A DNA stretch of 64,000 nt from Pseudooceanicola sp. (GTDB lineage: Bacteria; Pseudomonadota; Alphaproteobacteria; Rhodobacterales; Rhodobacteraceae): contig NZ_JARGNH010000002.1 in assembly GCF_029213205.1 (NCBI RefSeq), forward strand, positions 160,505 to 224,504. The letters run 5' to 3'. The notes under the pieces were generated by a model. That model searched no databases. It worked only from the letters and a program-made list of their open reading frames with translations, and was not told where the DNA came from. This document shows positions 11,365-18,786 of the stretch, piece by piece. The position numbers and the translations under genes are program-made. The stretch's first letter is position 1; each line of letters opens with the position of its first letter.

Positions 11365-11715
11365 TCAATAGAGATCCCATTCGTCCTGGTGGCGCAATTC
11401 ACCGATCGCCATCCAGCGGACCCGGGCGCGGGCAATGCGGGTGTCGCTCCAGGTGCGAAACACCAGGGTAAAATCTTCGGCGGTAATCGACTCGGCCGAG
11501 ATTTCGCCGCGGATATTGGTGGAACTGTCCAGATCCCACATCGACAGGGAGCAATGCACCGCCGGAGACTTGCGGAAACTTTCCGAGAATTTCACTTTAT
11601 TGCGGATTTCGCGGGCCCCGTTTCCGGTCCACATGGCGCCGCCGTCCTCATAGTCCGAGAACAGGATGTTCTCGCCCTGGTCGATGCCAATCCAGTGATT
11701 TCTTAGCCGCTTCAT
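11365..11715 (-). CDS. H-type lectin domain protein
   Basis: A 116-residue protein. The body from KVKFSESF to RVRWMAIGE matches the H-type lectin pattern: F-x-x-x-F at the start, P-x-V-x-C-S-L-S (about 51-58), an S-x-x-x-I-T-A-E-D-F-T-L strand, T-W-S-D-T, then a W-x-A-x-G-like end. These small six-stranded domains bind carbohydrates in animals and protists and occur sporadically in bacteria. There is no signal peptide, so it should be cytoplasmic unless exported otherwise. Start ATG 11715 is chosen over an upstream start at 11847. It is divergent from the first dctP gene, and its first codons were copied in the duplication at 13319. Confidence 0.75.
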   Translation of the reverse strand: MKRLRNHWIGIDQGENILFSDYEDGGAMWTGNGAREIRNKVKFSESFRKSPAVHCSLSMWDLDSSTNIRGEISAESITAEDFTLVFRTWSDTRIARARVRWMAIGELRHQDEWDLY

Positions 11716-11850
11716 AGATCTGTGTCCTGTTTCAGAACCCCGACCTAAACCGCAAATCCGGCCAGATTGTGGACCAATCAAGGAAAATCCGGTGCCACGA
11801 TTGCCGCGCAAGGTCCAATCCCTGGTCTGTCCTTGTGAAATTCCCAAAGG

Positions 11851-11875
11851 ATTCGCTTGCTTGCTGGTCTGCCAA
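11851..11875 (+). promoter_or_regulatory. shared motif TTGCTTGCTGGTCTGCC upstream of dctP1
   Basis: A TTGCTTGCYGGTC-like motif lies about 115 bases before the dctP1 start. It recurs at equivalent distances before dctP2 (13470) and, slightly altered, before dctP3 (15455), where the flanking DNA has otherwise diverged. It may be a promoter -35 region or an activator site. Confidence 0.4.
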
Positions 11876-11975
11876 AGCCCTAGTCTCGTCCGACGGGGTG
11901 GCAGTAAAAGGCGCCCTGTCAGGCGTCACGCAGGACGGGAGACCTCTGCGTCGCCTATGAAATGGGAGAGAGAAA

Positions 11976-13079
11976 ATGAAAAGCACCACTTTCGCGTGCG
12001 CGGCGGCTGCTGCGTTCGCGCTTGGCCTGACTGCAATGCCTGCATCGGCCCTCGACATGACCTTCGGCACCTATGTGTCGCCGACCTCAACCACCTTCCG
12101 CGCGGGCTCTGAGCCGATGCTTCGGCGCCTCGAAGAGCAATCCAACGGCGAAATGAAATGGGAAACCTTCACCGGTGGCGCCATGGGCGGCCCGAAAGAG
12201 CTGCTCGGCAACGCAGGGGCCGGCATTCTTGACGCCTCCGGCGTTGTCGATATTTACGTCAAAGCATCGCTGCCGCATTCCACGCTGGTTTCGGGGATGT
12301 TGATCGTTGGCGAAGACCCGGCGGCGATGGCCGGCGCGATGAATGAATTCCAGCTGCTGCATTGCCCGGATTGCCTGAAAGACCACGAGAAGAACAACGT
12401 CAAGGCCATGGGCTTTTCAGCGACCGGGACCTATCACCTGATCTGCAAGGACGAAGTCCACACCGCGGAACAGCTGCGTGGCAAGAAAGTCCGCGCCGTG
12501 GGCGGCATGGGCCGGGCGATCCAATCGCTGGGCGGCACGCCGGTGTCGATCACCACCGCCGAGATGTATGAAGCCATGCAGCGCGGCCAGATGGATTGTG
12601 CCACCGCGTCCGCCGCTTGGCTTGACACCTACAACCTGCGGGATTTCTCGAAATCCATCGTCATCGACAGCCTTGGCTCCTATTTCGGGATCATGAGCTT
12701 TGTGATCAACAAGGACGTCTGGGACGATCTTTCGGAAGCCAACCAAAAGATCATCAAGGCCAACATGGCACGCGTGTCCGCAGACGTCGTGTTTGCCTAT
12801 GCGCCCGAAGGTGCCGAAGCGATCAAGAACTTCGAAGCTAAAGGCGGCAAGGCCTATACGTTTGACGACGAGATGCAGGCCAGATTGGCCAAGGCGCGCG
12901 CCGACGAATATGCGTACACGATCGCATTCGGCAAAAAGAACGGCATCGAAAACGCCGAGGAACTGGTGACCACATTTGAGAAGCTGGTCGACAAATGGAA
13001 CGGCATCATGAAAGAAGTCGGCACCGACAAAGAGGCCTATATTCAGCGCCTTCAGGAAGAAGTCTACGACAAGATCTGA
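11976..13079 (+). CDS. TRAP transporter substrate-binding protein, DctP family (copy 1)
   Basis: A 367-residue periplasmic solute receptor. A signal peptide is clear (MKSTTF, a hydrophobic Ala-rich stretch, cut near PASA-LDM about residue 26). DctP features: FTGGAMGGPKELLGNAG, the ligand-binding Arg173 in GKKVRAVGG, and SITTAEMYEAMQRGQMDCA. Unusually, Cys130, Cys133 (LLHCPDC), Cys157 and Cys208 are conserved in all three paralogues here. It is the first of three intact receptor genes ahead of a single dctQM pair, and about 300 bp of its 3' half looks identical to copy 2. The ligand is unknown; an organic acid is the family norm. Confidence 0.9.
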   Translation: MKSTTFACAAAAAFALGLTAMPASALDMTFGTYVSPTSTTFRAGSEPMLRRLEEQSNGEMKWETFTGGAMGGPKELLGNAGAGILDASGVVDIYVKASLPHSTLVSGMLIVGEDPAAMAGAMNEFQLLHCPDCLKDHEKNNVKAMGFSATGTYHLICKDEVHTAEQLRGKKVRAVGGMGRAIQSLGGTPVSITTAEMYEAMQRGQMDCATASAAWLDTYNLRDFSKSIVIDSLGSYFGIMSFVINKDVWDDLSEANQKIIKANMARVSADVVFAYAPEGAEAIKNFEAKGGKAYTFDDEMQARLAKARADEYAYTIAFGKKNGIENAEELVTTFEKLVDKWNGIMKEVGTDKEAYIQRLQEEVYDKI

Positions 13080-13112
13080 TCACTTCACGACCCCAAACGA
13101 CCACGGCCGACC

Positions 13113-13144
13113 ACGGCCGACGATGTCACAGCATCGTTGGCCGT
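13113..13144 (+). terminator. hairpin after dctP1
   Basis: ACGGCCGACGATG (13113-13125) pairs with CATCGTTGGCCGT (13132-13144), with one G-T pair, followed by TCTCGTTT. It may be a partial terminator that makes the first receptor more abundant than downstream genes. The related hairpin after dctP2 (14715-14746) confirms the extent of the duplication. Confidence 0.55.
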
Positions 13145-13463
13145 TCTCGTTTCCAGAGTACTTACCTGAATTATCGGTTACATAGTATGTGAGATAGTCA
13201 CGAGATGTGACTCTTGAATCCATATTTATTTCGGATTTCAGGCAGTAAAAATGGAATACTGGTTTTGGAAAGGTATTACTTGCTTTTCAGAATCAACATA
13301 ACCTGTCCGGTAGGGGTAGCCGTTTCATAGATCTGTGTCCTGTTTCAGAACCCCGACCTAAACCGCGAATCCGGCCAGATTCTGGACCAGTCAAGGAAAA
13401 TCCGGCGTCGCAATTGTCGCATCAGGTTCAATCCCTGACCTGTCCTTGTGAAATTCTCACAGG

Positions 13464-13489
13464 AGTCATTTGCTTGCCGGTCAGCCAGT
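13464..13489 (+). promoter_or_regulatory. shared motif TTTGCTTGCCGGTCAGCC upstream of dctP2
   Basis: The counterpart of the 11851 motif, about 116 bases before the dctP2 start. Its core TTGCTTGCCGGTC is intact, whereas neighbouring bases differ between the two duplication units, which suggests selection on the motif. Confidence 0.4.
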
Positions 13490-13587
13490 GTCATAGGTTT
13501 GCCCGACAGGGTGCCAATAGAAGGCACGCTGTCGGGTGTCACACAGATCGGGAGAGATCTGTGGCGCCTGTGAAATGGGAGAAAGAA

Positions 13588-14691
13588 ATGAAGAGCACTA
13601 CTTTCGCGTGCGCGGCGGCTGCTGCGTTCGCATTTGGCCTGACCGCAATGCCTGCATCGGCCCGCGACATGACCTACGGCAGCTATACGTCGCCGACCTC
13701 GACCACGATGCGCACAGGAATTGCGCCATTGCTGAAGCGGCTCGAAGATCAATCCAACGGCGAAATGAAATGGGAAACCTTCACCGGTGGCGCCATGGGC
13801 GGCGCGAAAGAGCTGCTCGGCAACGCAGGGTCCGGTATCCTTGACGCCTCCTTGGTTGTGGACATCTATGTCAAAGCGTCGCTGCCGCATGCCTCGTTGA
13901 TTTCGGGGATGATGGTCGTTGGCGAAAACCCGCTGGCGATGGCCGGCGCGATGAATGAATTCCAGTTGCTGCATTGCCCGGGTTGCCTGAAAGACCACGA
14001 AAAGAACAACGTCAAGGCCATGGGCTTTACCGCGACCGGGACCTATCACCTGATCTGCAAGGACGAAATCCACACCGCGGAACAGCTGCGCGGCAAGAAA
14101 GTCCGCGCCGTGGCCAGCGTGGGCCGGGCGATCCAGGCACTGGGCGGCACGCCGGTGTCGATCACCCTCCCCGAGATGTATGAAGCCATGCAGCGCGGTC
14201 AGATAGATTGTGCCACCGGATCCGCCGCTTGGCTTGACACCTACAACCTGCAGGATTTCTCGAAATCCATCGTCACCGACAGCCTTGGTTCCTATTTCGG
14301 AAGCATGAACTTTGTGATCAACAAGGACGTCTGGGACGATCTTTCGGAAGCCAACCAAAAGATCATCAAGGCCAACATGGCACGCGTGTCCGCAGACGTC
14401 GTGTTTGCCTATGCGCCCGAAGGTGCCGAAGCGATCAAGAACTTCGAAGCTAAAGGCGGCAAGGCCTATACGTTTGACGACGAGATGCAGGCCAGATTGG
14501 CCAAGGCGCGCGCCGACGAATATGCGTACACGATCGCATTCGGCAAAAAGAACGGCATCGAAAACGCCGAGGAACTGGTGACCACATTTGAGAAGCTGGT
14601 CGACAAATGGACCGGCATCGTGAAAGAAATCGGCAACGACAAAGAGGCCTATATTCAGCGCCTTCAGACCGAGGTCTACGACAAGATCTGA
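13588..14691 (+). CDS. TRAP transporter substrate-binding protein, DctP family (copy 2)
   Basis: A 367-residue paralogue of copy 1 with the same length and signal peptide (cleavage near PASA-RDM). Cys130/133 (LLHCPGC), Cys157, Cys208 and Arg173 are retained. Differences cluster in the N-terminal and central ligand-binding part (SYTSPTSTTMRTGIAPLLKRLEDQ; VASVGRAIQALG; SITLPEMYEAMQRGQIDCATGS), whereas residues from about 241 to 341 are the same as in copy 1. This pattern suggests duplication, divergence of the ligand site and recent gene conversion of the C-terminal lobe. A longer frame from 13414 is rejected because ATG 13588 starts the signal peptide. Confidence 0.9.
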   Translation: MKSTTFACAAAAAFAFGLTAMPASARDMTYGSYTSPTSTTMRTGIAPLLKRLEDQSNGEMKWETFTGGAMGGAKELLGNAGSGILDASLVVDIYVKASLPHASLISGMMVVGENPLAMAGAMNEFQLLHCPGCLKDHEKNNVKAMGFTATGTYHLICKDEIHTAEQLRGKKVRAVASVGRAIQALGGTPVSITLPEMYEAMQRGQIDCATGSAAWLDTYNLQDFSKSIVTDSLGSYFGSMNFVINKDVWDDLSEANQKIIKANMARVSADVVFAYAPEGAEAIKNFEAKGGKAYTFDDEMQARLAKARADEYAYTIAFGKKNGIENAEELVTTFEKLVDKWTGIVKEIGNDKEAYIQRLQTEVYDKI

Positions 14692-14714
14692 TCACTTCAC
14701 GACCCCAAACAGCG

Positions 14715-14746
14715 ACGGCCGGCGATGTCACAGCATCGTCGACCGT
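14715..14746 (+). terminator. hairpin after dctP2
   Basis: ACGGCCGGCGATG and CATCGTCGACCGT form a stem with two mismatched or G-T positions around TCACAG, followed by TCTCGG. It is the diverged duplicate of the hairpin after dctP1. Confidence 0.45.
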
Positions 14747-14933
14747 TCTCGGTTCCAGCGCACTTACCTGAATTATTGGTATACATGTGACCTGCCACGG
14801 TTTTTTTCTTCCACCGTCGATTAGAGTCCGGCCCAACCTTGAACACGGAAAATGAAGCGCGCGGAACCCGCCGCCAGCCAGGCCAACCAAACCTGTGCTC
14901 ACCATCGTCAGGCTGAAAACATGGGAAGAAACC

Positions 14934-15339
14934 ATGACACTGTCCAAGCTTTCGCAGGTCATCGCATCATCGAACAGACAAACGGCGAAATCACTTGAGA
15001 AGCCTTTACCGGCGGCGCCAAGGATCTGCCCGTCCAACGCGGGCAATGGCATTCTGGACGCCTCGAGCGTTGGGGATATCTACGTCAAGGCGTGAAGGAC
15101 ATGGGCGGTCAAATGCTCGATGTCGATGCGGCCTTCAAGCAGGCATTCGAAGGGACTTGGACTCACGAAGTCGAGCTGGCGATCGCCACCGATAAAAAAA
15201 CTATATCGAACATGCCGAGGAGATGGTCAAAGCCTTCACCGATTCGATCGAAAAATGGATCAAGATCGTTGCCGAAGCCGACGGCGACAAGGAGGCCAGG
15301 AAAGACGCGATTGATCGAGAATTTTTAATTAAAATCTGA
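14934..15339 (+). pseudogene. decayed dctP paralogue with internal deletion
   Basis: Remnant of a fourth TRAP receptor gene. One part reads as ...EQTNGEIT-stop-EAFTGGAKDL..., then in another frame NAGNGILDASSVGDIYVKA-stop, corresponding to residues about 50-93 of the intact copies. Directly after this the text jumps to the C-terminal region (DAAFKQAFEGTW ... AIATDKK), then after a further shift EHAEEMVKAFTDSIEKW ... DKEARKDAIDREFLIKI-stop. Most of the middle of the gene is missing, and there are several stops and frameshifts. It is closest in layout to copy 3. The ATG 14934 is only a nominal start. Confidence 0.8.
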
Positions 15340-15451
15340 ATATTAGCCGATATCCGGGTGACAGATTCGCCGTCCGGATTCGCCGGTCAAGTAACCAGTG
15401 ACCGAACACCAAAGTTTATATGCATGAAGGTTGTTACAGCCTCGACAGAAT

Positions 15452-15480
15452 AACTTGCTTACTTGCCGGTCAATTAATAG
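15452..15480 (+). promoter_or_regulatory. shared motif TTGCTTACTTGCCGGTCAATTAATAG upstream of dctP3
   Basis: The third occurrence of the TTGC...TTGCCGGTC motif, about 107 bases before the dctP3 start, although the rest of this intergenic region is not obviously alignable with units A and B. The downstream TTAATAGAC could be the -10 region. Confidence 0.4.
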
Positions 15481-15569
15481 ACTCTTTGCCGAAGCGTCAC
15501 CTAAAACGACGCCTACCGGGAGGATGGAGCCGACCCCGGACTACGATACGGGTTCCTTGGGAGAAAAAA

Positions 15570-16664
15570 ATGAACATTAAAAATACAACTCTAGCTGCTG
15601 CAGCACTGGCCATGGTGGCCGGTACCGGCTGGGCGAAAGAACTGACCTACGGCACCTACACCTCGCCGACCCATACGGCGATCGTCTATGGCGTCGGCCC
15701 CGCGCAGGAACGGATCACCGCCGCCACCAATGGCGAAATCACCTTTGAGAACTTCACCGGTGGCTCGATGGGCGGTCCGAAAGACCTGCTCGGCAATGCT
15801 GGCAGTGGCATTCTGGACGCGGCTTCGGTGGTCGACATCTACGTGAAATCCTCGCTGCCGACTGCCGTGATGGTGTCCTCGATGATGGCCATCGGCCACA
15901 ACCCCAAGGTGATGGCTGCCGCGATGAACGAGTTCCAGCTTCTGCATTGCCCGCAGTGTGTTGAAGAGCGCGCCCGCAACAACGTGATCGGCCTGTCCTG
16001 GTCGTCAACTGCAGCCTATCATGTGTTGTGCAAGGAGCCGATCAAGACCCTTGCCGATCTGCAAGGTAAAAAGATCAGGGCGACGTCGGGAATCGGTATC
16101 GCTATGAAGGCAATCGGCGCATCACCGGTTTCGATCACCACCTCCGAAATGTACGAGGCCATGCAGCGTGGTCAGATCGATTGCGCTGTCGGTTCCGCCG
16201 CCTGGCTGAACACTTACAACCTCAAGGATGTCACCAAAGGTGCCTGGTCGAATCCGGTTGGCTCTTACTTCGGCAGCATGAACTGGGCGATCAACCTCGA
16301 CACCTGGAATGACCTGACCGCTGACCAGCAGCAAGCATTCAAAGACGGGTTGGCACAAAGCACGGCCGACATCATGTGGGCCTATGTCAGTGACAACGAA
16401 AAGGCGCTGGAATGGCTGGCCGCGAATGGCGGGACTGTCGAAGAATCCGACCAGGCCTTCAAGGATGCTTGGAAGGTCCAAGAAGACAACGCCTATGCCA
16501 CCGCCTTGGCCAATGCCGAGAAAGACGGCATCGAGAACGCGGCGGAACTGCTTGAGACCTACCGAGAGCTGGTCGCCAAATGGACCGCGAAAATGGAAGT
16601 CATCGGCGACGACAAAGACGCCTATCGTGATGCCCTCCAAGCCGAGGTCTTCTCCAAGATCTGA
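15570..16664 (+). CDS. TRAP transporter substrate-binding protein, DctP family (copy 3)
   Basis: A 364-residue periplasmic receptor with a signal peptide (MNIKNTTLAAAALAMVAGTGWA, cut before KEL). It is more diverged from copies 1 and 2 but shares the whole plan: FTGGSMGGPKDLLGNAGSG, LLHCPQC (Cys127, Cys130), Cys154, Arg170 in GKKIRATSG, SITTSEMYEAMQRGQIDCA (Cys205). It lies 72 bp before dctQ and so is the receptor most closely linked to the permease genes. A long upstream extension to 15420 is rejected; the purine-rich GGGAGAAAAAA before ATG is the ribosome site. Confidence 0.9.
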   Translation: MNIKNTTLAAAALAMVAGTGWAKELTYGTYTSPTHTAIVYGVGPAQERITAATNGEITFENFTGGSMGGPKDLLGNAGSGILDAASVVDIYVKSSLPTAVMVSSMMAIGHNPKVMAAAMNEFQLLHCPQCVEERARNNVIGLSWSSTAAYHVLCKEPIKTLADLQGKKIRATSGIGIAMKAIGASPVSITTSEMYEAMQRGQIDCAVGSAAWLNTYNLKDVTKGAWSNPVGSYFGSMNWAINLDTWNDLTADQQQAFKDGLAQSTADIMWAYVSDNEKALEWLAANGGTVEESDQAFKDAWKVQEDNAYATALANAEKDGIENAAELLETYRELVAKWTAKMEVIGDDKDAYRDALQAEVFSKI

Positions 16665-16736
16665 TTTGCCACTTCACCGGGATCGGGTCGTGCTCTGCCG
16701 AGCATTGGCCTGATCCCCTGAACAACGGACACACAC

Positions 16737-17357
16737 ATGCTACGCGCGATCGAACAAGTCGCCTCCCGCATTTCCGGCCTTGTGGCCATGATCGGCGGCA
16801 TCATCCTTGCCCTGATGATGGTCCAGGTTTCCCTGGATGTGGCAGCGAAATACATCTTTCACACACCGATCCCATCAACCCTTGAAATCGTCTCGGCCTA
16901 CTACATGGTCGCCTTGGTGTTTCTGCCGCTTGGTGTGGTCACCCGAGACCATGAGCACCTCGAAGTTGAGCTGTTCACCCAGCATCTGTCGCTTCGTAAG
17001 GTTGCGTTCTTCAAGATGCTGGGCTGCGTGATCGGCGCGATCTATTGCGGCTTTCTGTTCATCGAAGGCCTGGAACACGCGATTCACCAGACTAAAATCG
17101 GCGAGGTTTGGGAAACCGCGACCTTCGACATTCCAGTCTATGGGGCCCGTTGGTTCTTTCCGGCCGGTATCTTTCTCACCTTGGTTTATCTGATCCTCTA
17201 CGCGATCAACAACTTTGCCTTCATGACACGTGGTGAACATGTGCTTCCGGACCGGAGCATCAAGTCAGCGGTCGAAGCGGCGGTTGAAGAGGCCAATAAA
17301 CTTGCAGGCGACGATGGCAACCTTGGCGTTGGCCACGACGGTGCCGCAGCGGACTAA
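16737..17357 (+). CDS. TRAP transporter small permease subunit (DctQ)
   Basis: A 206-residue membrane protein with four predicted helices, the hallmark of DctQ: residues about 14-35, 50-70, 90-112 and 130-152. LDVAAKYIFHTPIPSTLEIVSAYYMV is typical of the first loop and second helix. The C-terminal tail (RSIKSAVEAAVEEANKLAGDDGN...) is unusually long, charged and soluble. It works with DctM in the inner membrane for sodium-coupled uptake of ligand delivered by the DctP receptors. Confidence 0.88.
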   Translation: MLRAIEQVASRISGLVAMIGGIILALMMVQVSLDVAAKYIFHTPIPSTLEIVSAYYMVALVFLPLGVVTRDHEHLEVELFTQHLSLRKVAFFKMLGCVIGAIYCGFLFIEGLEHAIHQTKIGEVWETATFDIPVYGARWFFPAGIFLTLVYLILYAINNFAFMTRGEHVLPDRSIKSAVEAAVEEANKLAGDDGNLGVGHDGAAAD

Positions 17358-17420
17358 CGGACATACCCGCAACGCGGCGCAAGGTTACGCGCCCGTTTTC
17401 CGGGAACAGGGAACAGAATA

Positions 17421-18731
17421 ATGGAATCACTTACTATCGGTTTTATTGGCGTTGGCGCGATCCTCGTGCTTCTTGCCGCACGCGTGCCGATCGCGTTCGC
17501 GCTCGGCTCGGTGTCGATGGTCGGGATCATGATCGTGCGCAACACCAAAGCAGCCTTCGCGATGATCGGGAGCCTGCCGCATGAATTCGCCTCGAGTTGG
17601 GAATTGTCGGCCATTCCGATGTTCCTGCTGATGGGTGCGGTGGCCTACAAGACTGGCCTGACCTCCAGCCTCTATGGGGCGGCACGGGTCTGGCTGAACA
17701 GCCTGCCGGGCGGCCTGGCGGTGGCGACAAACTTCACCGCTGCCGGCTTTGCCGCCGCTTCGGGATCCTCGGTGGCCACCTCGGCCGCGGTTGGCCGCTT
17801 GGCCATCCCCGAGATGCTGAAATACGGCTATGACAAGTCACTGGCGACCGGGACCGTTGCTGCTTCGGGTACCCTCGGCGCGTTGATCCCGCCGTCGATT
17901 GCCTTTGTGGTCTACGGCTTCTTCACCGAGCAATCGGTGGGTCGCCTGTTGATGGCTGGTCTGGTCCCCGGTCTGATGACCGCTGGCGCCTATACGATCA
18001 TGATCGTTGGTCGCTGCACCATCTGGCCGAAACTGGCGCCCAGAGCGGCCATTAATGTGACTTGGGGCGAACGTTGGCGCAGCCTGCGCGACGTCTGGCC
18101 GCTGCCGCTGCTGGTGCTTGGTGTGATCGGGTCGATCTACGCCGGTGTCGCGACCCCGACCGAAGCCGGTGCTCTTGGTGCCACCTTCGCGATCCTGATC
18201 GGGCTGGTGCAGGGACGTGCCAGTTTCGAAGTGCTGAAGGATGCGGTGATGGATGCCCTGCGCACCACCTCGTCGCTGTTCTTCCTCGCCATCGGCGCGG
18301 TGCTGCTGACCCGGTTCCTGGCTCTGGCCGGGGTGCCGACCTTCATCGCCAATCTGGTGTCGGATATGCAACTGAGCGAAATCGAATTGGTGATCGCGCT
18401 GGCCATCATCTATCTGATCCTCGGGATGTTCCTCGATCCGCTGGGCGTGATGCTGCTGACCCTGCCGGTGTTCCTGCCGGCCTTTGATGCGCTGAACGTC
18501 AACCTGATCTGGATCGGTGTGATTGTGGTCAAGATGATCGAGATCGGTCTGTTAACACCACCAGTTGGGCTCAACGTCTATATCGTGAAGAATGTCGTCG
18601 GCGATGCCGTGCCGTTGGCCACGATCTTTAAGGGTGTTGGCTGGTTCCTGCTCTGTGAATTCTTCATCATGTGGGCGCTGATCTGGAATCCCCAGCTGTC
18701 GCTCTGGCTGCCGAACCTGATGATGGATTGA
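17421..18731 (+). CDS. TRAP transporter large permease subunit (DctM)
   Basis: A 436-residue protein with about 12 membrane segments, the transport channel of the TRAP system. Family features include the SAIPMFLLMGAVAYKTG segment, the ASGSSVATSAAVGRLAIPEM repeat half and its GTLGALIPPSIAFVVYG continuation, and near the end LDPLGVMLLTLPVFLPA and LLTPPVGLNVYIVK. It starts 63 bp after dctQ and is followed by a strong terminator. Only one dctQM pair serves three receptors, so the permease is probably shared. Confidence 0.93.
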   Translation: MESLTIGFIGVGAILVLLAARVPIAFALGSVSMVGIMIVRNTKAAFAMIGSLPHEFASSWELSAIPMFLLMGAVAYKTGLTSSLYGAARVWLNSLPGGLAVATNFTAAGFAAASGSSVATSAAVGRLAIPEMLKYGYDKSLATGTVAASGTLGALIPPSIAFVVYGFFTEQSVGRLLMAGLVPGLMTAGAYTIMIVGRCTIWPKLAPRAAINVTWGERWRSLRDVWPLPLLVLGVIGSIYAGVATPTEAGALGATFAILIGLVQGRASFEVLKDAVMDALRTTSSLFFLAIGAVLLTRFLALAGVPTFIANLVSDMQLSEIELVIALAIIYLILGMFLDPLGVMLLTLPVFLPAFDALNVNLIWIGVIVVKMIEIGLLTPPVGLNVYIVKNVVGDAVPLATIFKGVGWFLLCEFFIMWALIWNPQLSLWLPNLMMD

Positions 18732-18753
18732 TCCACCACCAAGCAAAGTAACG

Positions 18754-18786
18754 AAAGCCCCGGAGCCGTGCTCCGGGGCTTTTTTC
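18754..18786 (+). terminator. intrinsic terminator of the TRAP locus
   Basis: AAAGCCCCGGAG / CTCCGGGGCTTT around a CCGTG loop followed by TTTTT, 23 bp after the dctM stop. Textbook rho-independent terminator. Confidence 0.9.

Follow-up and report, generated by a model that had tools for sequence, protein, structure and literature searches.

Organization of the receptor array

The window analyzed here, a 64,000-nucleotide (nt) stretch of contig NZ_JARGNH010000002.1 in which the coordinates of the array are given, sits in contig C42 of G000, the present Pseudooceanicola sp. genome (a draft assembly of 3.69 Mb in 60 contigs, with 95.6% completeness). It carries a tripartite ATP-independent periplasmic (TRAP) transporter locus with the gene order dctP1, dctP2, dctP relic, dctP3, dctQ, dctM, all on the plus strand. 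The receptor expansion at this locus is real, uncommon and lineage-specific, in a known transporter type, and includes one recent, fast-evolving duplicate, dctP2.

The open reading frames (ORFs) of dctP1, dctP2 and dctP3 are intact and full-length, and their products match PF03480 with E values of 2.3e-24, 1.6e-25 and 7.3e-26 and scores of 86.7, 90.5 and 91.6 bits, all above the cut-off of 23.4. The three likewise score 93-101 bits against TRAP_S1 (NF037995, cut-off 50), and 50-62 bits against the narrower TIGR00787, below its cut-off of 175. Both permease subunits adjoin the receptors, as judged by PF04290 and PF06808 matches. The preliminary description of this DNA, made from its letters and translations, had proposed three intact and one decayed receptor gene before a single DctQM, and the ORFs and family matches confirm this departure from the pattern of one receptor per DctQM. 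The N-termini of all three receptors appear hydrophobic by eye, and residues 1-22 of the dctP1 structure model are of low confidence. The features of the array are as follows.

11365..11718, minus strand: H-type lectin domain gene (PF09458, E 1e-20), a conserved neighbor whose first codons form the left edge of the duplicated unit
11706..13180, plus strand: duplicated unit, copy 1 (upstream region, dctP1 and downstream stem-loop; ends approximate)
11976..13079, plus strand: dctP1, receptor of clade A, which retains most ancestral residues
12698..12999, plus strand: identical tract in dctP1 (302 nt, same as 14310-14611)
13317..14780, plus strand: duplicated unit, copy 2 (ends approximate)
13588..14691, plus strand: dctP2, fast-evolving duplicate of dctP1
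14310..14611, plus strand: identical tract in dctP2 (302 nt, same as 12698-12999)
14930..15340, plus strand: decayed dctP (relic), which retains an N-terminal and a C-terminal piece, out of frame with each other, and little of the middle (ends approximate)
15570..16664, plus strand: dctP3, receptor of clade B, the permease-adjacent copy in all six genus genomes with this permease
16737..17357, plus strand: dctQ, small permease subunit (PF04290, E 1.7e-16)
17421..18731, plus strand: dctM, large permease subunit (PF06808, E 2e-84)

Tandem duplication, homogenization and the relic

dctP1 and dctP2, whose products are 89% identical to each other and each 48-50% identical to dctP3, arose when a unit of about 1.47 kb was duplicated in tandem, the second copy being offset by +1602 to +1613. 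Similarity between the copies extends from the opening codons of the lectin gene to about 13180/14780, and includes 272 nt upstream and 82 nt downstream of the genes, each 83% identical. Within these diverged copies, the 302-nt identical tract is the product of gene conversion or an equivalent homogenization later than the duplication. It corresponds to codons 242-341, which in the dctP1 model form the last long strand and most C-terminal helices, while the pocket loops are carried by the diverging part of the two receptors, outside the tract. Import of dctP2 from another species was considered and is not supported, as dctP2 is sister to dctP1 even on residues 26-241 alone (support 92/93); its synonymous divergence (dS) from dctP1, 0.18 versus 0.78-1.10 to orthologs, also speaks against an import.

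The relic was searched piecewise against a small database of 22 receptors. DctP matches were obtained for 15018-15092 (up to 84% over 19 residues, best E 1e-6) and, in another frame, for 15205-15336 (up to 48% over 44 residues, best E 3e-11), with weaker pieces at about 14963-14995 (best E 0.03) and 15071-15199 (best E 0.011) in the correct order; the pieces are split by stops and frame changes, and most of the middle is lost. A recent copy of dctP1 or dctP2 was rejected as its origin: the C-terminal piece shows 48% identity with the receptors G014_B and G020_A, ahead of dctP2 (45%), dctP1 (43%) and dctP3 (32%). Identity of the short N-terminal piece reaches 84% with dctP2 over 19 residues, and 48-68% with ten others over 25. 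By these comparisons the relic qualifies as a genuine decayed dctP that is not a recent copy of dctP1 or dctP2, so that of the loss of one receptor copy suggested in the preliminary description the decayed gene stands, although it is not clearly a lost copy of a neighbor.

Receptor number and history in relatives

This dctM is present in 6 of 22 genus genomes (E up to 1e-185), the other five copies being 86-92% identical, and the locus carries three receptors in G000, two each in G006, G018 and G020, and one each in G008 and G014. In fetched stretches of G006, G018 and G020 the array is bordered by prs and the lectin gene, the latter lying between prs and the array, and atp genes lie 3' of the array in G006, G018 and G008; the lectin gene also adjoins the array in G008 and G014, in the latter as the sole one of these neighbors found beside it. 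Receptor number thus differs between congeners at a syntenic locus, which bears out the copy-number comparison that the preliminary description had proposed. A search of 394 genomes sampled from the family, G000 included, gave a single further carrier of this dctM (E cut-off 1e-185), namely G362, of another genus. The receptor search, with an E cut-off of 1e-90, likewise added G362 alone. Its dctM is 76% identical, and its two receptors group together (97/96). A sample of 385 genomes from the class gave two others with a receptor at E up to 1e-70, and a close receptor also occurs in Pseudooceanicola nanhaiensis DSM 18065.

The receptor tree separates clade A (dctP1, dctP2 and orthologs) from clade B (dctP3 and orthologs, with which the unlinked receptors described below branch). 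For clade A including G020_A, support is 91/86 with whole proteins and rises to 100/99 when only residues 26-241 are used. Automatic start codons clipped the signal peptides or N-termini of G006_A, G362_x, G000_c53 and two 347-residue rows, and left residues 26 onward intact for the receptors used in the dctP1/dctP2 tests. Judged by sequence, dctP3 is an old paralogue of dctP1 and dctP2, and among the array receptors only the latter two are recent copies of each other. The recent gene-family evolution that had been read from this locus therefore holds for the dctP1/dctP2 split and not otherwise, because the dctP1 and dctP3 clades both occur in other species.

Receptors and permeases were counted in G000, G006, G018, G008 and G014, a receptor being near a DctM when within 6.5 kb. 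Among 126 DctP places and 112 DctM places with a receptor nearby, exactly one receptor is found at 105 of the 112 and at least two at seven, in keeping with the expectation of one receptor per TRAP locus. The G000 array is the only one with three. Three of the seven multi-receptor loci are the present locus in different genomes, and one, on G006 C20, is doubtful: its second receptor is on the strand opposite to DctM, at a distance of 5.6 kb, and has an internal stop. G000 itself has 20 DctP places versus 16 permeases with a receptor: three share the array permease, two share another, 14 have one each and one has none within 20 kb. A separate permease elsewhere for each receptor, the arrangement named in the preliminary description as contrary to its view, fails on these counts. 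Six receptors have no DctM within 6.5 kb; G006 and G018 hold two of them each, G000 and G014 one each, and three of the six are linked to a CYP153-type gene.

The second multi-receptor locus of G000, on contig C54, has tandem receptors (L104 2736-3779 and 4513-5556) followed by dctQ and dctM, and its receptor pair shows 2 differences in 1044 nt. Two more two-receptor TRAP loci lie in G018 (C1:1540255-1544352 and C2:12115-16119), and L042 (G006 C20:89522) and L041 (G018 C1:567152) hold TRAP receptors, 33% identical to dctP1, that have no DctM place within 14 kb.

Asymmetric divergence of dctP2

Over codons 26-241, dctP1 and dctP2 differ by 43 replacement and 26 synonymous changes, and their ratio of nonsynonymous to synonymous divergence (dN/dS) is 0.51 versus 0.10-0.18 in six ortholog pairs, four of which include dctP1 or dctP2. 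When a state was called ancestral if present in G006_A or G018_A, 28 amino-acid changes were assigned to the dctP2 lineage and 6 to dctP1, with 8 ambiguous (binomial p = 2e-4 for the asymmetry), and the corresponding synonymous changes were 10, 8 and 8. The dctP2 changes hit 2 of 67 sites (73 and 194) that are invariant in 13 other receptors, with about 8 expected (p = 0.003), and this avoidance indicates that dctP2 is still constrained.

Pocket contacts were taken from the literature on IseP, 4P47 and STM3169 and transferred by eye through profile alignments, not coordinates, so that their positions are approximate. Residues 26-241 hold 26 changes assigned to the dctP2 lineage, of which 4 are at such a contact, 8 within one residue of it and 11 within two, against a background of 17, 43 and 58 of 216 sites. 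The uncorrected one-sided p values for enrichment at these widths are 0.131, 0.114 and 0.052 relative to all sites, 0.132, 0.046 and 0.016 relative to clade-A ortholog changes, and 0.017, 0.020 and 0.009 relative to clade A and B ortholog changes. This trend is consistent and suggestive, not decisive; we claim from it neither proof of a new ligand nor strict positive selection on dctP2. The several ligands assumed in the preliminary description are accordingly narrowed to a suggestion, drawn from the faster protein change of dctP2 and the weak enrichment near the pocket.

Fold, binding residues and ligand class

A structure model of dctP1 (predicted local distance difference test score, pLDDT, 91.8) gave 349 fold matches at E up to 0.001, the best 50 of which are mostly TRAP receptors by title, 4n4u among them being titled ABC. 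The closest folds among the matches listed include TarP and marine metagenome aromatic-acid TRAP receptors (7nte, 7nra and 5i5p; template modeling (TM) scores 0.82-0.88 on the target, 18-21% sequence identity), and aromatic-acid TRAP receptors are also among the best folds for the unlinked receptor.

TRAP receptor ligand contacts comprise, in the accessible text of PMC11668362, an arginine that binds the carboxylate, a second arginine, an asparagine, an acidic and an aromatic residue. Arg173 is kept in all 11 array receptors aligned and lines up with the carboxylate-binding arginine; at the second Arg, Asn, acidic and aromatic positions the array receptors have Y, G/A, P/A and T/L. The carboxylate arginine is absent from the three unlinked receptors, in which position 173 is I or M and position 153 is V. 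Four cysteines (dctP1 residues 130, 133, 157 and 208, two of them in a CPxC motif) are invariant in the 14 receptors aligned and may form disulfides.

An unlinked receptor beside a CYP153-type gene

In G000, G006 and G018, a fourth, permease-less receptor gene lies about 90 nt 3' of a cytochrome P450 gene, with a divergent TetR-type gene beside it (the TetR profile check covered G000 only). The pairs are located at L053 8193-10732, L052 7541-10047 and L051 3731-6240. The closest solved relative of the P450 is 3rwl, CYP153A7 (536 bits over 408 residues), and its score against NF041802 (SolI), 569 bits, is below the cut-off of 850; by these matches it is a CYP153-type enzyme, with hydroxylation of alkanes or fatty acids as its putative activity. 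P450s of this type (E up to 1e-100) occur in 7 of 7 genomes with this dctM versus 3 of 16 others searched (Fisher p = 4.9e-4, in a test that ignores kinship). In G020, dctQ and dctM are followed on the same strand by genes for an M20 hydrolase, an AMP-binding ligase and another CYP153 (L048 282-8494), and the ligase-CYP153 pair is present in all six genus genomes with this dctM.

Further unlinked receptors of the same clade, judged by identity, were not found in 22 other genomes at E up to 1e-45, where hits outside arrays are 27-34% identical. Sixteen plasmid records matched, and four were looked at. The three annotated plasmid relatives (30-35% identical) have acyl-coenzyme A (acyl-CoA) dehydrogenase and CoA-transferase genes nearby, two also a thiolase gene, with other catabolic genes mixed among the neighbors on the Sagittula plasmid; the unannotated fourth (41%) has an AMP-binding ligase, an opposite-strand thiolase and an Lcp-type oxygenase domain. 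Retention of only the one carboxylate arginine, the CYP153 genes and the acyl-CoA-type neighbors in some relatives together point to bulky hydrophobic monocarboxylates as candidate ligands.

The unlinked receptor, in which all aligned charged contacts correspond to uncharged residues, might even capture an uncharged hydrocarbon or alcohol and serve as a fourth receptor on the array permease, in a TRAP route for alkane-type substrates whose range is set by receptor exchange. We regard this extension as speculative and rather improbable. Against an alkane role, TRAP proteins were more abundant on dispersant than on hexadecane in the accessible text of a Marinobacter proteomics study (PMC7822026), and a term search for "TRAP" in the available text of two alkane proteomics papers (PMC6304351, PMC7318663) gave no hit. 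A literature search for TRAP, CYP153 and alkane together returned no papers.

A model of receptor sharing and its alternatives

These data favor, with moderate confidence, a model where the array is a DctPQM system with an enlarged receptor set sharing one permease, dctP2 is drifting toward a different ligand, and the ligands are hydrophobic monocarboxylates. One DctQM would be the docking partner of dctP1, dctP2, dctP3 and the unlinked CYP153-linked receptor alike. The shared C-terminal part would preserve a common hinge and docking surface, and the part of dctP2 that bears the pocket would move toward a different ligand, so that pockets could evolve separately. The ligands would be bulky, fatty-acid-like or alkane-derived. 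That the receptors bind different ligands and share one permease is what we infer from their sequences.

Several observations weigh against this model. A TRAP receptor and its permease are usually regarded as a unique pair (accessible text of PMC12599236), and unlinked TRAP receptors other than the CYP153-linked ones exist in congeners, so that the unlinked receptor need not use the array permease. The asymmetry of replacement relative to synonymous changes is borderline (Fisher p = 0.052), the dN/dS of dctP1/dctP2 is below 1 in codons 26-241, and the nine pocket tests, at three author-chosen widths, carry no multiple-testing correction. With respect to the ligand class, the fold matches are 16-21% identical, so that ligand transfer is weak; the ligase-CYP153 pair and the array are on different contigs or over 75 kb apart in five of six genus genomes; kinship may contribute to the co-occurrence of dctM and CYP153; and no support for the acyl-CoA theme comes from the two relatives at class level, where the one neighbor scanned is in one case an aminotransferase and in the other a BCCT transporter.

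Since dN/dS is below 1 and the Fisher test borderline, partly relaxed constraint on dctP2 fits as well, and its asymmetry is explicable either by a new ligand or by such relaxation. It is possible, if clearly less probable than receptor divergence, that dctP2 is redundant and becoming a second relic, the array being a transient amplification with no new ligand. The decayed receptor adjoining dctP2 and the dN/dS value agree with this, and the C54 pair indicates that receptor copies arise in G000 without obvious divergence. However, dctP2 is intact, its lineage changes touch just two of the 67 invariant sites, which argues that constraint remains, they fall near the pocket somewhat more often than ortholog changes do, and 18 of the 28 introduce a residue present in at least one of ten other receptors (a raw count with no null model).

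An increase in the ratio of receptor to permease for one scarce ligand is an unlikely explanation of the array. Such a dosage effect would agree with the almost identical C54 pair and with the predicted stem-loops that follow dctP1, dctP2 and dctP3 (z-scores -3.8, -1.4 and -4.8), as stem-loops of this kind can stabilize receptor mRNA. Pure dosage does not, however, predict 28 versus 6 replacements, and dctP3 is only 48-50% identical to dctP1 and dctP2, in clades that are both old. Five post-receptor stretches in three relatives also fold (z -0.5 to -3.1), and the stem-loops would fit separate control of receptor amounts; a promoter scan found no sigma-70-like site. The predicted structures recorded at the locus are the following.

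13113..13144, plus strand: stem-loop 3' of dctP1 (z -3.8)
16679..16722, plus strand: stem-loop between dctP3 and dctQ (z -4.8; ends approximate)
18753..18783, plus strand: predicted terminator-like stem-loop 3' of dctM

Finally, an exact 302-nt repeat within diverged copies is a known short-read assembly trap and the genome is a draft of 60 contigs, but assembly errors are a very improbable source of the tract and the duplicate, given the diverged flanks on both sides of the tract, within and beyond the gene, and the near-identical 1044-nt pair kept apart in the same assembly.

Comparison with known systems

Three findings go beyond the preliminary description: the homogenized tract, a fourth receptor that is unlinked, and the association with CYP153, the last of which provides a first candidate substrate class. 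The array offers a natural experiment on whether one TRAP permease can serve several receptors, and its material comprises two receptors that are nearly identical, alike in the C-terminal part and different in the part bearing the pocket, an older paralogue, and relatives with one or two receptors. If binding differs, the receptor set would show how TRAP range widens without permease duplication.

A search of literature on multi-receptor TRAP permeases, TRAP and alkanes, and binding-protein duplication found no comparable TRAP locus in the text available, subscription journals being mostly outside its scope. The locus shares with DctPQM TRAP transporters (PF03480, PF04290, PF06808) the three subunits, full-length receptors and, in the array receptors, the carboxylate-binding arginine, and differs in having three intact receptors and a relic per permease, where 105 of 112 DctM loci have one. 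TarP and the marine metagenome aromatic-acid receptors are among the closest solved folds to the dctP1 model among the matches listed, at an identity (18-21%) from which the ligand is not transferable. "Homes for the orphans" reportedly treats ATP-binding cassette (ABC) transporters with several or unlinked substrate-binding proteins. These resemble the array in having multiple receptors for one permease and in receptor-only duplication, described for ABC transporters in the accessible text of PMC12599236, and differ in that their permease is ATP-driven, whereas the array belongs to a TRAP secondary transporter. According to the same text, IctPQM of Pseudomonas aeruginosa reflects a TRAP duplication specific to its lineage, after which the specificity of the receptor shifted, the course proposed here for the array; there, however, the whole transporter was duplicated, and in the array the receptor alone.

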